From Bdellovibrio sp. (GTDB taxonomy: Bacteria > Bdellovibrionota > Bacteriovoracia > Bacteriovoracales > Bacteriovoracaceae): a stretch of DNA of 64,000 nucleotides. The notes beneath the pieces are model-generated. The model ran no database searches and was not told where the DNA came from. It was given only the letters and a program-made list of their open reading frames with translations. Positions 4,774 through 16,712 of the stretch are shown piece by piece; positions within the stretch are counted from its first letter, which is position 1, and the number at the start of each line of letters is the position of its first letter. The DNA lies in contig DYOQ01000001.1 in NCBI GenBank assembly GCA_020720455.1, positions 1 to 64,000 of the forward strand, given 5' to 3'. Position numbers and translations under genes: made by a program.

Positions 4774-5955
4774 TTACAAAATATCCATAAAACTATCAAC
4801 TTTCAACTTCATTTCTAAATATTCATCATCAACGGAACTAAGCAGTGTTACGCCTCCGCCAGCACCATAGAATAATTTTTTATTTTTTAAATCAATATCA
4901 GCTGTTCTTATGTTGACAGAAGCTGCAACTATATTTTTGTGAAGTATTATTGTAGAACCACAATAAAATCCTCTGGACCTTTTTTCAACACTTCTTAAAA
5001 TCTCCATCACTCTTTTTTTAGGGGCGCCGGTAACACTTCCTCCAGGAAAGAGTGATTTCAAAATCTGATACAATGAGACATCATAAGATAACGAAGCGAC
5101 TATTTTTGAATACTGATGAATAATTCCAGAAACTGCAAGTGGTAATTTCTTGGCAATAACTTTTGAACATGGAGATTCAATTCGAGACAGATCATTTCTC
5201 ATTAGATCTGTAATCATAAAAAGCTCAGCCTCGTTTTTTTCTGAGGTTACAAGCTGTTTCCATTTTTTTTTAAAATCACGATTACTACCATTCCAGCGTA
5301 TACTGCCCTTTATAGGCATACTCTCTATCAGCAAGTTCTTTTGTCTTTTTTTTATTTGAAATAGACACTCAGGAGAGTTACTCATAATAAGCCTATTCAG
5401 CATAGGTAGATATGTGGCATGTCCATATCCACCGACTAAACCACTACTCGCCCAAACACGGCCAATAATCGCTTCTGGGTTATTGGTGGAAATCAAATAT
5501 TGAAAATCCTTAGTTAGATTAAATTGATAACAATCCCCTCTTTTTAAATACTCCTGGCCTACTCTATAATTATTTTTATAGATCTGTTTGCTAGGAATCT
5601 TCATCGGGCCTAGATTAATTTTCTCTTTAAACTCTTTAGGGATATAAACATCTTTATCTGAATAATCTAAAACCAACATCAAAAGCTCATCATCTTTTAT
5701 TAAATCAACACTACCTGTCCAAAAAAAACCAAGTTCGTATAAACAGTGAATCACTCTTGGCCGAACAAACTCTTGATCAAACTTAATAGAACTTAAAACC
5801 TCTTGAATGTCGCTTAGCTCTGACGACATAACTTCGTTTGTTAACAGATTAACTCGTCTATTTTTATAATACGCAATGACTGAAGTAGGATTGGCAAATT
5901 TTAGAAAACTAGTTTTATAAGGAATGAGTGTAAAACAACTACTGTTGCTGAGCAT
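4774..5955 (-). CDS. pabB: chorismate-utilising enzyme, probable aminodeoxychorismate synthase component I, 393 aa
   Basis: Converts chorismate with ammonia to 4-amino-4-deoxychorismate (folate route) or anthranilate (tryptophan route). C-terminal chorismate-binding motifs are clear: ELFMITDLMRNDLSRI, then LFPGGSVTGAPKKRVMEIL, RSRGFYCGS, and the final GAGGGVTLLSSVDDEYLEMK. The N-terminal region is shorter and more diverged than in TrpE (about 390 rather than 500 residues), which fits PabB better; no trpD/trpG-type gene is adjacent. Start chosen at the ATG at 5955, with GGAAG upstream, inside the end of dnaB (the genes overlap by 17 bases); an in-frame GTG at 5988 is the alternative. The partner glutaminase is not in the window. 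Confidence 0.82.
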   Translation of the reverse strand: MLSNSSCFTLIPYKTSFLKFANPTSVIAYYKNRRVNLLTNEVMSSELSDIQEVLSSIKFDQEFVRPRVIHCLYELGFFWTGSVDLIKDDELLMLVLDYSDKDVYIPKEFKEKINLGPMKIPSKQIYKNNYRVGQEYLKRGDCYQFNLTKDFQYLISTNNPEAIIGRVWASSGLVGGYGHATYLPMLNRLIMSNSPECLFQIKKRQKNLLIESMPIKGSIRWNGSNRDFKKKWKQLVTSEKNEAELFMITDLMRNDLSRIESPCSKVIAKKLPLAVSGIIHQYSKIVASLSYDVSLYQILKSLFPGGSVTGAPKKRVMEILRSVEKRSRGFYCGSTIILHKNIVAASVNIRTADIDLKNKKLFYGAGGGVTLLSSVDDEYLEMKLKVDSFMDIL

Positions 5956-7306
5956 ACCGAGCTTCCATCCCTTCTGGTATCGACTCACGATATGCTAAAT
6001 TTCCAAAAGATGTGTATGCTCCGACCCATGAAAGTTTGGCAGTTCCAACTTCACCAGATCTATTTTTGACAACTATAATTTCTGCAATCCCTAAATCTTT
6101 TGAATTTGGGTCATAAACCTCATCACGATAGATCATCATAACAACGTCAGCATCTTGCTCAATTGATCCAGACTCTCGAAGATCTGATAAGCTCGGACGT
6201 TTATTAGGGCGTTGTTCAACCCCTCTGTTAAGCTGAGATAACGCAATAACTGGACATTCTAGTTCTTTTGCCATCGCCTTAAGACCTCTTGAAATCTCAG
6301 CGATCTGTTGCTCTCTACTTGACGTATTTGTATGAGGAGTCATTAGTTGCAAGTAATCTATTATCACCAGACCAAGGCCATGCTCTGCCTTAATTTTTCG
6401 TGACTGACTCTGAATATCAAGAAGATTTATCTGACCAGAGTCTTCAATAAAGATTGGAAGTTTTGCAAGCGTCTGCGCGGCCATGCCTAAGCTTCTTAAG
6501 TCTGTATCTAGAAAATCTTTTGCCTTAATTTTTCTTGAATTAACTTTTGCTTTAGAAGAGAGAACTCTCATACTAAGTTCTTGGGCAACCATCTCTAGAG
6601 AAAAGATTGCTACCGGAAACTGAGTCTCTTCACATACATTGACTGCAATATTTAAAGCAAACGCAGTTTTTCCCATAGCGGGCCTTGCTGCAATAACTAG
6701 TAACTGGCCAGCTTGCATTCCAAGTAGCAGCTCATCCAATTTTTTAAAACCAGTTGGAAATCCTGAGATCTCACCTTTTTTTCTTGCGTTATCATCTAAA
6801 TCTTTAAGATTTTGCTTTATACACTCATTGAGTTTTAACATTCCAGAGTGCTTAGCATCTCCGGTTAGTTGTAAAAAACTTGTTTCAACCTCTTGGATAA
6901 AATCGGCCACAAGTCCGTCATATTGCAAACCTTTTTCGGCAACCTTCGATGCCGTTTTCACAATACGTCTCATGCTAGATTTATCTTTTACCGTTTTAGC
7001 ATAGTGGTAAACATTGGCAGCAGTCGCTTGGTCATCCACTATCTCAGTTATAAAACTCTGCCCACCAAGTTGTTCCAGTTTATCTCCGTCATTTAGACGT
7101 GAACAAACCGTTACATAATCAATGGGCATGTTTTGTTGATAGAGGTCTTTTATCGCATTAAAGATTATTCCCATTTTTGGATCGTAAAAATCATCTTTCG
7201 AAAGTTTCAAGTCAGCAATATCATCTATTGCTGTACCATCAATTATCAAACAACCGACTAGCGATTTTTCAGCTAACAAATCATGGGGAAGTTCTTTAAC
7301 GGCCAT
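5939..7306 (-). CDS. dnaB: replicative DNA helicase DnaB, 455 aa
   Basis: Hexameric 5'-3' helicase that unwinds DNA at the replication fork and recruits primase. The N-terminal domain (from PHDLLAEKSLVGCLIID) precedes a RecA-like ATPase with Walker A AARPAMGKT at residues 206-214, FSLEMVAQELSMRVLS, Walker B region LGLVIIDYLQLM, and the C-terminal LRESGSIEQDADVVMMIYRD segment. No intein interrupts it. ATG at 7306 follows GAGGT. Position after rplI is the classic rpsF-rpsR-rplI-dnaB arrangement. It overlaps the following pabB-like gene. Confidence 0.98.
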   Translation of the reverse strand: MAVKELPHDLLAEKSLVGCLIIDGTAIDDIADLKLSKDDFYDPKMGIIFNAIKDLYQQNMPIDYVTVCSRLNDGDKLEQLGGQSFITEIVDDQATAANVYHYAKTVKDKSSMRRIVKTASKVAEKGLQYDGLVADFIQEVETSFLQLTGDAKHSGMLKLNECIKQNLKDLDDNARKKGEISGFPTGFKKLDELLLGMQAGQLLVIAARPAMGKTAFALNIAVNVCEETQFPVAIFSLEMVAQELSMRVLSSKAKVNSRKIKAKDFLDTDLRSLGMAAQTLAKLPIFIEDSGQINLLDIQSQSRKIKAEHGLGLVIIDYLQLMTPHTNTSSREQQIAEISRGLKAMAKELECPVIALSQLNRGVEQRPNKRPSLSDLRESGSIEQDADVVMMIYRDEVYDPNSKDLGIAEIIVVKNRSGEVGTAKLSWVGAYTSFGNLAYRESIPEGMEARYAQQQ

Positions 7307-7339: not shown

Positions 7340-7921
7340 CTACTCTTCTGACGAATCATCTTCAGTAACTTCACCTTCACTTTGAGCGGCTTCAGCTTCG
7401 GCACCTTCTTCTTTCTTTTTAGACTTGCCTCTTTTCAAAGCCGCCTCTTGTCTTGCCTTAATCTCTTTTACCTGCTCTGGATCCATTTCAACTTTAACTT
7501 TAAATAATGCTTCAACATCTTTAAAAAGTTTAACAATAACATCTGTCTCACCAAGTGTTTTGATTGGGTCTGTAATAGCGATCAATCGTCTCTCAACTTC
7601 AATCCCTTTATCAAAAAGTTCCTTAGCAAGGTCTGTGTTAGTAACAGTTCCAAAAAGTTTTCCGTTACTTCCAATTCGCTTGACTAGTTTTAGTGTAAGT
7701 CCATCAATTTTCTTTTTCATCTCAGTAGCAGCAGCTTTTTGTGCATCAACTTTCTTTGACAAACGCTTCTGATTGTTTGCCAAAACGTTTTTGTTTGCAT
7801 CATCAGCAAGGACAGCAAGCTTTCCTGGGATAAGACAATTTCGTGCGTAACCAGCAGTAACATTGACTATCTCACCAACATTTCCGAGGGCCCTGATTTT
7901 TTCTGTTAAAATAACTTTCAT
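7340..7921 (-). CDS. rplI: 50S ribosomal protein L9 (bL9) with an acidic C-terminal extension, 193 aa
   Basis: bL9 binds 23S rRNA near the L1 stalk and helps hold the reading frame. The N-terminal domain is standard (MKVILTEKIRALGNVGEIV, then GYARNCLIPGKLAVLA), followed by the long connecting helix and C-terminal domain to about residue 150. Beyond that is an extra tail of ~40 residues: first basic (KRGKSKKK), then strongly acidic and Ala/Ser-rich, ending VTEDDSSEE. Typical bL9 is about 150 residues. AAGGAG lies 6 bases before the ATG and directly abuts a tandem heptamer array (7931-7965). Confidence 0.97.
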   Translation of the reverse strand: MKVILTEKIRALGNVGEIVNVTAGYARNCLIPGKLAVLADDANKNVLANNQKRLSKKVDAQKAAATEMKKKIDGLTLKLVKRIGSNGKLFGTVTNTDLAKELFDKGIEVERRLIAITDPIKTLGETDVIVKLFKDVEALFKVKVEMDPEQVKEIKARQEAALKRGKSKKKEEGAEAEAAQSEGEVTEDDSSEE

Positions 7922-7983: not shown

Positions 7984-8961
7984 TTATTCATCTCCAACGT
8001 TATTATCAGATTTTTTGTCAAACTTATCAAAAAACTTCCTGATATCAAACCACATATCAAACATCCCAACGACCGCAACAAGCCTAAATCCAAGAACAAC
8101 TGTTATTATGATAAACATTGATCTTAAAAAACCATAAATTTTCAACTTGTTTAACAGATCGATATAAATACCAAACCCTTGGAAAAAATAGAACACACCT
8201 AACATGTAGAGAACATTCTCTCCAAGAAGAGCTAGCTCTTTCCCTGCAATTTTATCCCCGAGAAGCATCAAGGCCAACGAAGCAATAAGTGGCCATACAA
8301 AATGGTATGGAACCTTAAATTTAATTAATCCATCAACGGTGTATGGATAATCAACACCTCGAAGCCAGATTGCTGAATTGCGAAGAATCACAAAAAAAGA
8401 GAGCCACAACGTAATAAAAATACCGGTAACAATGGCCGCAGGAATTCCTTCCGTATAAGCTTTAATCATATCGGTTCTAATCTGTGTGGCCTTATCTTCT
8501 GGAAACAGGTCTGGATTTTTTACCAAAACGCTATCAACAACTTCTGTGATTACTTTTTTCAACTCAACAGATAATGAAAAATCTGTAAAGGCAACCAAAC
8601 CTCCCCAAATAGAAACCAGAACTGCTATCACAAAAAGGCCGTGATAAATAATCCCTTTTACTGGTGAGATTTTTCTAAAAAAAGATTCAGAAACCATTAG
8701 CGAAAAGATAAACGAGATGACAAAAGGTATATAAATAAATGGAGTGACAACCTTAAAGATCATCGACATTCCAATAAGAAACAGTGAGCAGACAATACCA
8801 AAAATTAAACCGATGACTCTTCCGTACTGCAAAGATGCAAGCACCATCGGCACCGGAGCAAATATTGGCAAAAAAGAGCTTAGAGAAGCAGAAACAAGGC
8901 CAAGAAAAGCCAACTTTCCAACTCCTTTATCTTTTAATAACTGCTGCGCCACTTTATTCAT
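7984..8961 (-). CDS. DUF2232 (YybS-like) integral membrane protein, 325 aa
   Basis: Polytopic inner-membrane protein with about eight hydrophobic segments, starting LAFLGLVSASLSSFLPIFAP. This opening and the location between rpsR and rplI match the DUF2232/YybS family, whose molecular role is not established. The C-terminus is cytosolic-looking and charged (DKFDKKSDNNVGDE). It lies 24 bases after the S6-S18 gene and is surely in the same transcript. The ATG at 8961 has AAAGGA close upstream. Confidence 0.82.
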   Translation of the reverse strand: MNKVAQQLLKDKGVGKLAFLGLVSASLSSFLPIFAPVPMVLASLQYGRVIGLIFGIVCSLFLIGMSMIFKVVTPFIYIPFVISFIFSLMVSESFFRKISPVKGIIYHGLFVIAVLVSIWGGLVAFTDFSLSVELKKVITEVVDSVLVKNPDLFPEDKATQIRTDMIKAYTEGIPAAIVTGIFITLWLSFFVILRNSAIWLRGVDYPYTVDGLIKFKVPYHFVWPLIASLALMLLGDKIAGKELALLGENVLYMLGVFYFFQGFGIYIDLLNKLKIYGFLRSMFIIITVVLGFRLVAVVGMFDMWFDIRKFFDKFDKKSDNNVGDE

Positions 8962-8985: not shown

Positions 8986-9615
8986 CTACTGTTGTCTTGC
9001 TATTTCGTTATTAACATAGCTTACCAAACCTAGCTGTCTTGCTCGCTTAATCGCAGCAACTGCCTTAGTTTGATTTTGTCTTGTAATTCCAGAAATACGA
9101 GATGGAGAAATTTTCCCAAACTCATTTAACAACCATGTGTACGATGCAGGATCTTTCCAATCTGGTGCGATCTCGTATCTAGAGAACCAGCAACCTCTAT
9201 TCTTAACGAATCGTTTCTTGCTGCCGCTCGTATCATTGTCTTCTGCTTCAACAATATCTAATACCGTACCTGCGTATTTCTTTGAGAATGGAGTTCTGTA
9301 TTTTTTAACGAACTCATTTAGTTTCTCGTCAACACCAAGCTTAGTGATCATGTGTCTAACGATACCTTCTGAAATTCCTAAACGTCTAACCATCTCTTCA
9401 TTGACAGTGTTGCCACCTTTGTAAATGAAATACAAGAAATGGCCACGGCCAACACTGCCATCCATTGACTGAGCAAAATTGATATTGCCCCAATCATCTT
9501 GGACTGCGATGTCACCTTTTGCCAACTTCACGACATCTTCTACAACTGCCTTAAAACTTGATAACTTTTCTTCCCCTGAATCGGGATGAGCAACTATTAC
9601 TAGCTCATAGATCAT
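8986..9615 (-). CDS. rpsF/rpsR: single-chain fusion of ribosomal proteins S6 and S18 (bS6-bS18), 209 aa
   Basis: bS6 and bS18 normally are two proteins that pair on the platform of the 30S subunit. Here one uninterrupted frame encodes both. Residues 1-~105 are bS6-like (MIYELVIVAHPDSGEEKL start, GRGHFLYFIYKG strand, MVRRLGISEGIVRHMIT helix). Residues ~106-133 form a charged, Gly/Ser-containing linker (AEDNDTSGSKK). Residues ~134-209 are bS18-like (KKRFVKNRGCWF, then FGKISPSRISGITRQNQ and AAIKRARQLGLVSYV). There is no stop codon and no Shine-Dalgarno sequence before the S18 part. The ATG at 9615 follows AGGGGG. No second rpsR is seen in this window. First gene of the ribosomal/dnaB operon. Confidence 0.93.
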   Translation of the reverse strand: MIYELVIVAHPDSGEEKLSSFKAVVEDVVKLAKGDIAVQDDWGNINFAQSMDGSVGRGHFLYFIYKGGNTVNEEMVRRLGISEGIVRHMITKLGVDEKLNEFVKKYRTPFSKKYAGTVLDIVEAEDNDTSGSKKRFVKNRGCWFSRYEIAPDWKDPASYTWLLNEFGKISPSRISGITRQNQTKAVAAIKRARQLGLVSYVNNEIARQQ

Positions 9616-9718
9616 AAAACCCCCTGGTCTTCAATTGGCCCTGTTTTACCTATAAAAAACAGAACGAGATTAATAAATGTAAAACAACACTCAATAACAA
9701 AAAATTTATTGAAAACGC

Positions 9719-11635: not shown

Positions 11636-13288
11636 ATGAAAAAAAATCTTATCATCGTGGCCATAACGGCAATGTTGTTTGGTTGCTCGATCTTTGTTCC
11701 AAATAGAAATCCTGCTTCAATTGAAGATATTGATCCCTCAGACATTCAGCATCAAAAAGAAAAAAATCAAAAATTTATAATATTAGCAGAAGAGACACTC
11801 TCATGGAGAGCAAAAGCAATCGATTTTCACAAGCATCTCAAAGAAACAGATGTTCTTAATAATGAAGATTTAGTCACACTTCATAGAAAAGGTAGCGATC
11901 AATATTTCAAGCTTAGAACCGAGTTATTGCGTTACATAAACGACATACAATGGGTAGCAGAAAGAAATGTTGAGATCCATGCAAACTCTAATGAAACATC
12001 TATTCACGATTCACTTATCAATACAGATGAAAATGCAAACTTAGATGGACCAGACATAACCCGGAAAATTAAGATTTTTAAAATTGATAAACATAGTGAC
12101 GCTGGTAAATACATAATCAATGATATCACCATTGGGCTTGCCGCTGCTATACTACTAAGCGATAACTATCTTCTTGCAATATCACCGTATCAAAATGACA
12201 AAAAATTTAGACGGATAATAAACGAAGATAACACTGATTATAAAAATGTATTAAGAAAGGTAACTGAATCATTTTACGATCAAAAAAATAATGAATTACT
12301 CGTAAGAACTCGTGCAATCTATGACCACATATATAAAAGCAAGGCCGTCGTAAAGGCGAGATCATATCCGATGCCAGTTAGAATTAACGGAGCTGATCAT
12401 GATCTATATTTGCGTGAACTAATCGAATCTAGTGAAACCTATAAAAATATCAAAAATTTCGGATATGAGTATTTAAGAAAAGAGCATGCTGGAACAATGC
12501 TTGCCTCCATTAAAGACCAGTTAAGAAAGCTGCTCTCAAAAACTCTCTTTGAAATTAGTAAAGATTTTGGCAATGGAGTTGGTTCTGTTCAAGAAAGAGA
12601 CGGAAAACTATACAACATGGATCCAGCACAAGAAAAAACTATCTCTGATCAGCTAAAGCCTCTTGATATCCTTCTCGAGAAAACCCCTTTTAGGCTTACT
12701 GACAAACTTATTCCGGGACACTGGGGACACGTTGCAGTTTGGGTTGGAACAGAGGTTGAACTAAAAAACTTAGGTGTCTGGGACGAACTACCATCCATCT
12801 ATGAACATGCTAAAAAATATTATGAATATGATGGTGAAGATTTTCAACAAGCAATACGAAGTGGCCATCGTATTGTCGAAGCGCTTCGACCTGGTGTTCA
12901 GATTAACACTTTGGCACATTTCCTAAACATAGATGACCTTGGAGTAATAAGAAGAAAAACTCTGACCGATCAACAAAAAAGAGAGTTCCTCATAAGAACT
13001 TTTGAACAGATTGGAAAAGAGTATGATTTCAATTTTGATGTTGAATCAGATAAAAGAATCGTCTGCTCAGAGCTTGCTTACGTAACATTTCCAGATATTG
13101 ACTGGTCTACAAAAAAGACATTAGGAAGAGAGACCATTTCTCCTGACAATATAGCCGATTTGGCCAAAAATTTAGATTCACCATTTGCACCAATACTACT
13201 CTATCACGATGGGAAACTTCTAAAAAATAGCCTCCGAGAGAACTTTAATAACTTATTAGAACTCAGTTACAACAAGATTAAATTTTAG
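11636..13288 (+). CDS. lipoprotein with a YiiX/YebB-like permuted NlpC/P60 cysteine hydrolase domain, 550 aa
   Basis: A signal peptide ends in the lipobox LFGC (Cys17), so the protein should be lipid-anchored in the envelope. Residues ~20-340 are a helical region of no known family. The C-terminal part resembles the circularly permuted papain-like NlpC/P60 group: IPGHWGHVAVWVGT carries the candidate catalytic His (H362/H365), and RIVCSELAYVTFPDIDW the candidate nucleophile C477. Relatives cleave amide or thioester bonds in peptidoglycan peptides or acyl lipids, so target is open. AAGGAG precedes the ATG. It starts a plus-strand three-gene cassette; the next gene begins 14 bases later. Confidence 0.85.
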   Translation: MKKNLIIVAITAMLFGCSIFVPNRNPASIEDIDPSDIQHQKEKNQKFIILAEETLSWRAKAIDFHKHLKETDVLNNEDLVTLHRKGSDQYFKLRTELLRYINDIQWVAERNVEIHANSNETSIHDSLINTDENANLDGPDITRKIKIFKIDKHSDAGKYIINDITIGLAAAILLSDNYLLAISPYQNDKKFRRIINEDNTDYKNVLRKVTESFYDQKNNELLVRTRAIYDHIYKSKAVVKARSYPMPVRINGADHDLYLRELIESSETYKNIKNFGYEYLRKEHAGTMLASIKDQLRKLLSKTLFEISKDFGNGVGSVQERDGKLYNMDPAQEKTISDQLKPLDILLEKTPFRLTDKLIPGHWGHVAVWVGTEVELKNLGVWDELPSIYEHAKKYYEYDGEDFQQAIRSGHRIVEALRPGVQINTLAHFLNIDDLGVIRRKTLTDQQKREFLIRTFEQIGKEYDFNFDVESDKRIVCSELAYVTFPDIDWSTKKTLGRETISPDNIADLAKNLDSPFAPILLYHDGKLLKNSLRENFNNLLELSYNKIKF

Positions 13289-13302
13289 ATCAAGGATTGT
13301 TT

Positions 13303-14556
13303 ATGAAACTAGGTATTTTTTTTGTCGTCATCATGGGTGGAATCCTTTTTGGTCTTTCTCAGTATGATGGAAAAACTGCAAGAAAAAAAGTATGGGACAA
13401 TGCCAAGCACGAAAGACTACCCGCTAGTCTCTTTAACGACATAGACCTCATTACGTTCCAAGATTTTTTCTCATCATCTTCTCTTGAAGATGGAATTAAG
13501 TACGATATCACTACAGACTTCTGGACCAATAAGGATACTGATTACTTACAAGAAAAATCGCTAGAAAGTATTCGCGAAGCTATTTTAAAAACGGCCACAG
13601 CTGCAGGCGAACAGTTACCAGATGAAAAAATAGTTCTATCAAAAATACTTAAAGATAACCTTATCGAGAGCTTTATAGGGAACTTTGTAAAAACACTTGC
13701 AGTATATAAAATTATCAATGGAGTATTTCAATTTGATATAAATTTTAATCCAAAGAATGATCACTGGACAAACTATGATAACGAACTTTCGAGTAATCAA
13801 CTCATACGAATTAATCAGACTGGACTATTGGAAGAACAGTTAAACGACGCCTCAAAATCCGTTGTCGATCACATTGTCGATACCACATTCAAAATTCCAA
13901 GTAGCGACAACACCTATCACTACGCAGGCGGCGTAGTTACACTATGGGTTAAACTCTTAGATATTTTAGCTTCACCTACCCAACCGCTAAAACTTGTCGA
14001 CTCTTTCATCAGATACAGGCGCTATTACCGCATGAACAACGCTATTGAATTTACTTCACTAGGAATCGGGGGAAACAGTGGAATGATCGATGATATCAAA
14101 AAAGCTCCAGGTGAAGATAATAAATATAATGCTGAGTTCGTAACAGTTGACGTTTACAAAAAAATAAATAGAACGACATTTGCTCCATACCTAGATAAAG
14201 CTGATGTCTATTTTGGAAAACTTATTCCATCTACCAACAGAAGAGAAAATACCATTAACAGAACAATAGCTGAAAGACCAAACATTATTAAAAGTTCAGA
14301 CTATCAAATCAATGTAAGGACAGTTAAAGACCGACAAAAATATACATATACCGTTCCACTCGGTGTACTCTCATACTCCTTCATTGATAAATCATTCTCA
14401 CACCTACTACCACCAAATGTAATTGGCAAAGATTTTGACAGTGAAGATGCCGATGTGAAATTTGCCAATAGTTTAATAAACCGATATGGCAGAGATTTTA
14501 TAAATAAACTAAAACTAGACAGATTCCACCTACTATTAAAACAGGATGCGCAATGA
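13303..14556 (+). CDS. exported or membrane-anchored protein of unknown function, 417 aa
   Basis: The start is the ATG at 13303 with AAGGA upstream (a TTG at 13297 is the alternative). Residues 1-18 (MKLGIFFVVIMGGILFG) form a signal peptide or anchor. The remainder is soluble, rich in Asp/Asn/Lys and aromatic residues, with no family I recognise; possible features are a basic YRRYYRMNNAIEF segment and a final helix KLKLDRFHLLLKQ. It lies between a putative cysteine hydrolase lipoprotein and a phospholipase D protein, overlapping the latter by ATGA, so it is translationally coupled and probably a partner, scaffold or export factor of these enzymes. Confidence 0.8.
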   Translation: MKLGIFFVVIMGGILFGLSQYDGKTARKKVWDNAKHERLPASLFNDIDLITFQDFFSSSSLEDGIKYDITTDFWTNKDTDYLQEKSLESIREAILKTATAAGEQLPDEKIVLSKILKDNLIESFIGNFVKTLAVYKIINGVFQFDINFNPKNDHWTNYDNELSSNQLIRINQTGLLEEQLNDASKSVVDHIVDTTFKIPSSDNTYHYAGGVVTLWVKLLDILASPTQPLKLVDSFIRYRRYYRMNNAIEFTSLGIGGNSGMIDDIKKAPGEDNKYNAEFVTVDVYKKINRTTFAPYLDKADVYFGKLIPSTNRRENTINRTIAERPNIIKSSDYQINVRTVKDRQKYTYTVPLGVLSYSFIDKSFSHLLPPNVIGKDFDSEDADVKFANSLINRYGRDFINKLKLDRFHLLLKQDAQ

Positions 14557-16712
14557 AACATTTAATAACAGCAGCTATCTTTTGTGTTTTGCTTTTAACT
14601 ATCATTGAGGCCAATGCAAAAAATATCAATATCAGAGACCGAATAGAAACAAAAAATTTTTACAGGTCTGTGTACGATACATTATTTGGTGAAGAAAATT
14701 ATCGAACGACAAGTAGTTTTTATAGTGTAATCAACCAACAACCAAATAATACAAAACAAAAAATTGACACATTCATCAAAAGATTAGACAGGGTACTACC
14801 TGCACAAATCTTGATGCCACTTACTTATTGGAGATTAGTTTCTCCTGAACCAGAAAAAGTTGCAGATATTATCTCATTTGCTATCCTTTATAAACTTCTT
14901 GTCATTAGAGATTACATTGATAATCCACTGACCGATCCAGCAAACGTAGACAGAGCAAAAGAGATCCTAAAAAACGTATCAGAAAATGACGAAACATCAT
15001 CTCAAAATCTATTCTCGCTAACAATTCCGAACATTAAATCTTTTTCCAAGAGAGCATCCGCAGAAAGAAGTGACGAAGCATTTATAGCAATGGTTAATAG
15101 TAATCATGTCATCAAGGAAAATATAAAAAACAACATTAGTGATATTCAAGATTATATAACAAGTTATTTAGGTTATATTCCAGGAAATATTGTTGAATTT
15201 ATCAGCAAAAATGACACCAGTACTGCACGAATTGACTGGGTCAATGAGAGAGTAGTTTTTAATGGTGGTAGCTTAGATTTTTCTAAAGATTATATGAAAA
15301 TGCCTTCTGGCCCATCACAAACTGGACATATTGCGTTTGTTCAAGATCCAATCTTTATTAAAATTAGAGATATGATTTCACAGGCAAAAGAGTCAATTTT
15401 TATCGATATTTTTCTTTTTGGTGGAACAATGGGTGGAACACTTGCTAAATATCTCATTGACCAAACACTTAACAAACGCAAACTAAATCCTTATTTTAAA
15501 ACTTTAATTTTGCATGACTACTCCACAAACTACACAATGTGGCCAGAGATGAAACCTGTTTTTGAATATATCAGAGATTCAATTAAGAGTGATCCCGAAG
15601 TTGCTGATGCGATAACACTACTTCAAGCAAACATCCAACGTCACCCGCCAGGAGTGCCATTAAGAATTACAGACTTAATTCCAAAGACGCCTGAAGTTTT
15701 TAATATCATAGAATCTAGAGATACATACTACGAGTCAAAAATTGACCACAGCAAAGTAATTGTTGTCGATGCAAAAAGTGATCGCCCTAAGGCATATTTT
15801 GGTTCAAAAAACTGGACCGATCATAGTGGCTCCTACTACTACGACAACGCAATCTATGTCGAAGGGCCAGCAGCAGCAGTTGTTCAAGCCTCTTATTACG
15901 ACGACGTAGAAGCTGCCCTAACTTCAGATCCAGCAGAACTTGAATGGTTTTATTATAAAAATCAAGGATTCGATAATAAACATTACCTCGGCAAGAAGGA
16001 TGAGATTCTCTCGTGGATGAGAATTGAACGAAATAGTTACCCATCATTAAATGATGAAATTTCAGGTATAGTTAAAATAGCTGAAGCTGATGTTGATGGT
16101 AAAATAAAGGATGTTAGAAACACACTTGTAGACATGATAAAGAAGGCCAAAAGTCATATCTACATGGAACACCTATTTTTCTACGATAGATATATCGTCG
16201 ATTCACTTTTAAAAAAGAAAAAGTCAAATCCAGATGTCGATATAAAAATCATTATTGATAAGAACGAAAATTTTGGAATGAACGGTTTTCCAAACACAAT
16301 CTTTCTAAAATCCTTAATGGATGCTGGTGTTGAAATAAGAGAAAGAGACACTGTCGGACGACCAATTCGTTTTCCAAATGGGACTGAGCGAGAATATAAC
16401 CAAGAAGACCATCGAAAAGTTAGTGACGTTGATGGTATAATGCTTCTTGGCGGATCATCCAACATAAATCCTGACACTCTCCAAGGAAGCTTTAGAGAAT
16501 TTGGCGCCCAAATTTTTGATCAAAAAGAGATCGCAAAATTTGAAAAAGATTTTTTGGCAGACTGGGATTCAAACAAAACACTTGATTGCAACATCGACGC
16601 TTTTAAATTTAAGCTAGGGGAAAAGGAACTTCCACTCGCTCTATCTGCTGCTATAAATGATTTTGCAGCAACACTCATAAGGTCAAAAGATCACCTAGAG
16701 GGCAAGCAATAA
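14553..16712 (+). CDS. exported phospholipase D superfamily protein with two HKD motifs, 719 aa
   Basis: Signal peptide residues 1-22 (ending EANA-KN). After a ~220-residue unique N-terminal region comes a PLD fold: the first half contains SIFIDIFLFGGTMGG and the HKD motif HSKVIVVD (H399, K401, D406) followed by YFGSKNWTDHS; the second half has HIYMEHLFFYDRYIVDSL and HRKVSDVD (H620, K622, D627) followed by LLGGSSNINPDTL. Both motifs are complete, so a phosphodiester- or transphosphatidylating enzyme of the envelope or exterior is expected (cardiolipin-synthase-like or phospholipase). Much longer than typical ClsA (~480). In this kind of organism it could attack host lipid or remodel its own; this is inference. 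Confidence 0.88.
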   Translation: MKHLITAAIFCVLLLTIIEANAKNINIRDRIETKNFYRSVYDTLFGEENYRTTSSFYSVINQQPNNTKQKIDTFIKRLDRVLPAQILMPLTYWRLVSPEPEKVADIISFAILYKLLVIRDYIDNPLTDPANVDRAKEILKNVSENDETSSQNLFSLTIPNIKSFSKRASAERSDEAFIAMVNSNHVIKENIKNNISDIQDYITSYLGYIPGNIVEFISKNDTSTARIDWVNERVVFNGGSLDFSKDYMKMPSGPSQTGHIAFVQDPIFIKIRDMISQAKESIFIDIFLFGGTMGGTLAKYLIDQTLNKRKLNPYFKTLILHDYSTNYTMWPEMKPVFEYIRDSIKSDPEVADAITLLQANIQRHPPGVPLRITDLIPKTPEVFNIIESRDTYYESKIDHSKVIVVDAKSDRPKAYFGSKNWTDHSGSYYYDNAIYVEGPAAAVVQASYYDDVEAALTSDPAELEWFYYKNQGFDNKHYLGKKDEILSWMRIERNSYPSLNDEISGIVKIAEADVDGKIKDVRNTLVDMIKKAKSHIYMEHLFFYDRYIVDSLLKKKKSNPDVDIKIIIDKNENFGMNGFPNTIFLKSLMDAGVEIRERDTVGRPIRFPNGTEREYNQEDHRKVSDVDGIMLLGGSSNINPDTLQGSFREFGAQIFDQKEIAKFEKDFLADWDSNKTLDCNIDAFKFKLGEKELPLALSAAINDFAATLIRSKDHLEGKQ

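Follow-up and report, generated by a model that had tools for sequence, protein, structure and literature searches.

A single open reading frame encodes ribosomal proteins S6 and S18 in nearly all Bacteriovoracia

Ribosomal proteins S6 and S18 are a textbook pair, which need to pair with each other before they bind rRNA. In E. coli they are separate chains encoded in the operon rpsF-priB-rpsR-rplI, with priB lying between their two genes. The translation of rpsF is repressed there by the S6:S18 complex only and by neither protein alone, and this repression needs the contacts made by S18 residues K60 and R63 as well as two cytosines in the mRNA leader, where a hairpin and a CC lie beside the Shine-Dalgarno strand (PMC4647458). 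Ribosomal proteins within fused chains are also known, such as the eukaryotic ubiquitin fusions RPS27a and RPL40 (PMC10296562), in which one ribosomal protein is combined with ubiquitin and the chain undergoes a known cut, and the NCBIfam family NF011110, a signalling protein fused to bL9, where the partner is a non-ribosomal enzyme. The gene described here resembles both in placing a ribosomal protein in a fused chain, but it joins two mutually binding ribosomal proteins and no cut is known for it. The proteins and their partnership are thus familiar, while the covalent form is new. An earlier note on this DNA knew of no described case, and we likewise found no published S6::S18 fusion in the open-access literature, a scope outside which most subscription journals lie, and no mention of the fusion by text search of three predator genome papers. 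Such proteins may already carry a fusion label in automated databases.

The window, i.e. the whole stretch of DNA that was analysed, comprises 64,000 nucleotides of Bdellovibrio sp. (GenBank assembly GCA_020720455.1, contig DYOQ01000001.1, positions 1 to 64,000), a member of the class Bacteriovoracia, which includes many predators of other bacteria. The genome is a draft assembly of 92 contigs with 96.85% completeness. The fused gene and its operon neighbours are as follows.

8986..9615, minus strand: fused rpsF::rpsR gene, 209 amino acids, ATG start, one frame (ORF list, Pfam and NCBIfam)
9301..9615, minus strand: bS6 domain, residues 1-105 (PF01250 at residues 3-92; S6 fold in the AlphaFold2 model)
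9214..9300, minus strand: linker, residues about 106-134, made of the S6 C-terminal tail and the former S18 N-terminal tail (homologues, AlphaFold2, no in-frame start)
8989..9213, minus strand: bS18 domain, residues 135-209, with the rRNA-contact motif K190-R191-x-R193 (PF01084, TIGR00165, E. coli alignment)
7984..8961, minus strand: DUF2232 membrane protein, next gene of the operon (Pfam)
7340..7921, minus strand: rplI, bL9 (Pfam and NCBIfam)
5939..7306, minus strand: dnaB (Pfam and NCBIfam)

The locus shares with E. coli the same two proteins, the partner rplI and the KR-x-R motif of S18. The main differences are that S6 and S18 form one chain and that DUF2232 lies between S18 and L9, the order DUF2232, rplI and dnaB after the fused gene being that of the rpsF-rpsR neighbourhood in related bacteria. 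Elsewhere in the window, three adjoining ORFs at 11636-16712 on the plus strand encode a lipoprotein-like product that contains a Peptidase_C92 domain, one that has no Pfam match, and a PLD-like protein of 719 amino acids.

The core reading of the earlier note, a true S6::S18 gene fusion with a complete bS6 and a complete bS18 in one frame, is well supported. The 209 codons are uninterrupted and both Pfam domains score above their cut-offs: Ribosomal_S6 (PF01250) reaches 52.5 bits against a cut-off of 27 and covers profile positions 2-90 of 90, and Ribosomal_S18 (PF01084) matches residues 150-197 with 48.7 bits against 21. The NCBIfam model for S18 (TIGR00165) is also passed at residues 136-203 (47.5, cut-off 38.75). 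The S6 half is divergent yet complete, since TIGR00166 matched it but under the strict cut-off (31 against 42.9), while the Pfam S6 match is full-length. A second rpsR, which the note said would change the interpretation, was looked for in the whole genome and is absent; PF01084 and PF01250 each match once, both within ORF 8986-9615. Between S6 residue 95 and the Cys of the S18 C-x-F motif there is no in-frame stop, as had been claimed, and no in-frame ATG, GTG or TTG either, which leaves S18 without a separate start codon. The linker is flexible and charged and of about 28 residues, as first described. Across 80 distinct homologues, the spacing from YKxP to CxF is 22-38 residues. The linker runs from the S6 tail, which is conserved (YK-x-P...), through a middle that is acidic and variable to the former N-terminal tail of S18, (D/E)KD(K/R)(K/R)-x-F-x-(K/R)RK-x-C-x-F, which is carried by split S18 proteins too. 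This make-up is what a joining of the S6 and S18 tails would predict.

The trait had been noted in one genome, and it turns out not to be peculiar to it but to occur in nearly all Bacteriovoracia, having probably arisen after a few basal lineages diverged. An S18 match was present in 118 of the 129 Bacteriovoracia genomes sampled. In 110 of these 118, S6 and S18 matches share one open frame of 203-252 amino acids, which gives 93 distinct proteins. The named relatives, recovered with a 15-sequence alignment as the query (a single-sequence contig scan yielded none), belong to Bacteriovoracaceae and Halobacteriovoraceae, and include the cultured isolates Bacteriovorax sp. BSW11_IV and DB6_IX as well as the named Halobacteriovorax marinus 36_234_T64. 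In two genomes (G110 and G120) a contig end falls inside the gene. Five genomes of basal lineages (G020, G058, G059, G060 and G064) have separate, adjacent S6 and S18 genes, which lie 11-57 nt apart in the four loci read out (G059, G060, G064 and G020). In one genome of the fused clade that is 99% complete (G071), the linker contains an in-frame TAA (SEEDI*KDEKNKRNF; L037, 4799-4830, minus strand), and there is no ATG, GTG or TTG near the S18 part; judged from the sequence, the TAA may be an error, be read through or go together with an odd start. One draft genome has an additional S6 match that lies on a different contig and is not fused (G074:C102:487-744), possibly contamination.

The search for the fusion covered the phylum Bdellovibrionota, and we know of no S6::S18 fusion in other phyla. 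Among the matches listed for the rest of the phylum, the S18 frames have 74-161 amino acids, too short for a fusion; S6 and S18 are adjacent and separate there, or S18 lies outside the S6-DUF2232-L9 operon. The opposite of a fusion, rpsR placed away from the rpsF-DUF2232-rplI operon, is seen in several other families of Bdellovibrionota, at L172, L175 and L177 (genomes G133, G200 and G263) as against L148-L152, and genome G188 (L159 and L160) has two S18 genes, one beside S6 and one unlinked. RimI, the acetylase of the S18 N-terminus, was tested as a possible casualty of the fusion and set aside: its curated cut-off was passed by only 6 of 38 (5 of 12 outgroup genomes, and 1 of the 22 genomes that had been picked as fused), a pattern that follows ancestry and proves nothing, and RimI-like acetyltransferases are present everywhere.

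In a tree of DnaB plus L9 from 93 loci, from which S6 and S18 were left out, the split loci of G058/G059 and G060 fall into a starred clade that branches off close to the root of the class, and G020, on a long branch, joins this basal clade with lower support. When the fused rows were constrained to one clade (all fused rows, G071 and the two contig-end cases, with G064 outside), the likelihood was 12 units above that of the free quick tree, with an AU p of 0.69; G064 and G020 are both long branches in this tree. These results fit one fusion after the departure of the basal split lineages, which is the favoured though not a proven history. In such a history, rpsF and rpsR would have been adjacent ancestrally in the order rpsF-rpsR-DUF2232-rplI-dnaB, an early ancestor of most Bacteriovoracia would have lost the stop codon and a short intergenic stretch, and the C-terminal tail of S6 would thereby have been joined to the former N-terminal tail of S18 as a flexible acidic linker.

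The AlphaFold2 model of the fusion, built with 53 homologues as input, has a mean pLDDT of 82.8 and a pTM of 0.80, and its only disordered stretch (pLDDT below 50) is at residues 127-139, in the linker region. The S6 half shows the beta-alpha-beta-beta-alpha-beta order of the ferredoxin-like S6 fold, and Foldseek places this first half among S6 chains of the PDB, the best matches reaching a TMt of up to 0.91; no PDB chain spanning both the S6 and S18 halves was found. The pTM value by itself suggests a fixed mutual placement of the two domains, since so high a value would otherwise be hard to reach. The E. coli S18 residues K60, R61 and R63, which contact C719/C720 of the rRNA, align with K190, R191 and R193; in the 53 homologues K190 and R193 do not vary, and neither do W153 and K154, which belong to the DYKD/DWKD site facing S6. 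The 16S rRNA site of S18 with C719/C720 was found in two fused Bacteriovoracia relatives (ACACCAGAGGCG and ACACCGGAGGCG); a search for a 16S rRNA match in genome G000 gave none. The S6 and S18 domains would be expected to pack together as the separate chains do, and the fused chain would enter the 30S platform as one unit, with h22/h23a of the 16S rRNA as the expected binding site.

The fused gene is preceded by a leader, whose elements in the window copy are listed here.

9616-9668, minus strand: leader of the fused gene
9666..9668, minus strand: CUC, which as the proposed 5' strand of P1 would pair with the Shine-Dalgarno sequence (CUCG is nearly invariant)
9638..9665, minus strand: hairpin P2, GUUCUGUUUUUU-AUAG-GUAAAACAGGGC, covarying in the class
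9620..9627, minus strand: CC-A-GGGGG, with the CC directly 5' of the Shine-Dalgarno sequence, proposed mimic of C719/C720 (CC counts)

Throughout the class the order is CUC, a hairpin GCU...GGC, a variable spacer, CC and the Shine-Dalgarno sequence. At least eight pairs are formed in 81% of 84 distinct hairpins, against 4.3% of shuffles optimised alike, and all six standard pairs occur at pair positions 5-8; as MAFFT misaligned the hairpins, pairs were counted inwards from their ends, the CUC-G anchor setting the 5' end. Of 91 leaders of fused genes, 81 have the CC directly before the RGGAG core, but only 1 of 163 other genes with a similar Shine-Dalgarno sequence, taken from the window and from related loci, does so; the CC therefore does not belong to the ribosome site as such. 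The leader CC(A/G)GGAGG also resembles the 16S rRNA site of S18, ACACC(A/G)GAGGCG. Outgroup and E. coli leaders have the equivalent layout CCUU-hairpin-...(A)CCG-..AAGG, and the Rfam family RF02893 (RpsF_leader) is alike in holding the Shine-Dalgarno sequence in P1, a GCU..GGC-type hairpin and a bulge with CC. It differs in its P1, which is CCUU:AAGG as against CUC:GAG (a pairing assigned by inspection), and in the base after CC, which is G instead of the A of most class leaders. RF02893 gave no hit that reached its threshold, whether in the window, in 10 class loci or in 20 genomes, while the E. coli leader used as positive control was recognised as RpsF_leader with 110 bits. The naming as an rpsF leader consequently rests on layout, from which we read it as an rpsF leader that has diverged, with P1 changed from CCUU:AAGG to CUC:GAG and the S18-binding CC probably kept. 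Rfam scans of the leader returned chance matches only. Many class leaders are preceded by a recurring ACATTYA box and a TGTGCTAAATT-like promoter stretch, located 40-80 bases ahead of the start. An improved covariance model could draw on about 90 class leaders plus the outgroup leaders. The leader-RNA feedback, which the earlier note expected to be altered, looks retained rather than lost: surplus fused protein would bind the hairpin and the CC by the Shine-Dalgarno sequence and repress translation of its own mRNA, in the manner of the E. coli S6:S18 complex.

We consider it highly probable that the window gene makes an S6:S18 heterodimer with its two halves covalently tethered, which would join the 30S platform as a single unit and keep its role as repressor of its own mRNA. 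A sequencing or assembly artefact with loss of a stop codon has practically no chance: the window genome is a draft, but the same frame stands in 110 genomes of 40-odd genera, among them isolates as well as near-complete assemblies in one or two contigs, and this conservation excludes chance or the sequencing error that the earlier note had named as a refutation. It is also very improbable that a separate S18 is made in addition by internal initiation in the fused gene. Most genes of the genus Bacteriovorax do have an ATG seven codons ahead of the S18 Cys, in some cases near a weak purine-rich stretch. However, 32 of the 93 distinct fused genes lack any internal ATG, GTG or TTG, 77 of the 93 have no internal start with a Shine-Dalgarno duplex of -4 kcal/mol or better, and the window gene itself has no in-frame start in the linker, for which reason internal initiation was rejected there. 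The duplex at the first start has a median of -10.3 and is at weakest -6.4 kcal/mol. Since internal starts are absent and the main Shine-Dalgarno sequence is strong, the fused product is the sole product that the DNA of the window gene offers, and a single chain would be translated from the strong rpsF ribosome site.

A chain made as a precursor could still be cut by a protease in the disordered linker to give separate S6 and S18, like the eukaryotic ubiquitin-ribosomal protein fusions. A linker that is disordered in the model, acidic and variable in both length and sequence would tolerate such a cut; against this, it contains no cleavage motif common to the class, its conserved parts are the S6 tail and the adjoining S18 tail and not the middle, and a cut would be unnecessary for assembly as S6 and S18 are neighbours. 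We hold this cleavage to be improbable. Somewhat more room must be left for an intact fusion that is selectively neutral, an accident of operon compaction without any effect on assembly or regulation, which we regard as possible though rather unlikely. The poorly conserved linker sequence and the persistence of the operon and leader with or without the fusion speak for it, but the fusion has persisted long and class-wide with one doubtful break (G071), and it can be argued that neutral fusions might split more often. For the class as a whole, an uncut, linked S6-S18 that sits in the 30S platform and is also a direct repressor of its own mRNA is the likely state. If this is true, the formation of the heterodimer would be no separate step of assembly, and free S6 or S18 would be absent from the cell. 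Of the consequences named by the earlier note, the fixed 1:1 ratio is a direct result as long as the chain remains uncut, and a changed assembly order would be a further expectation.

The S6::S18 fusion is a near class-wide marker of Bacteriovoracia, in which automated inventories of ribosomal proteins may score one protein as missing, and it is accompanied by a regulatory RNA so diverged that it escapes current models. With this natural fusion one can examine in living cells if S6:S18 pairing is limiting for the assembly of 30S subunits, and if either protein has any activity when free.
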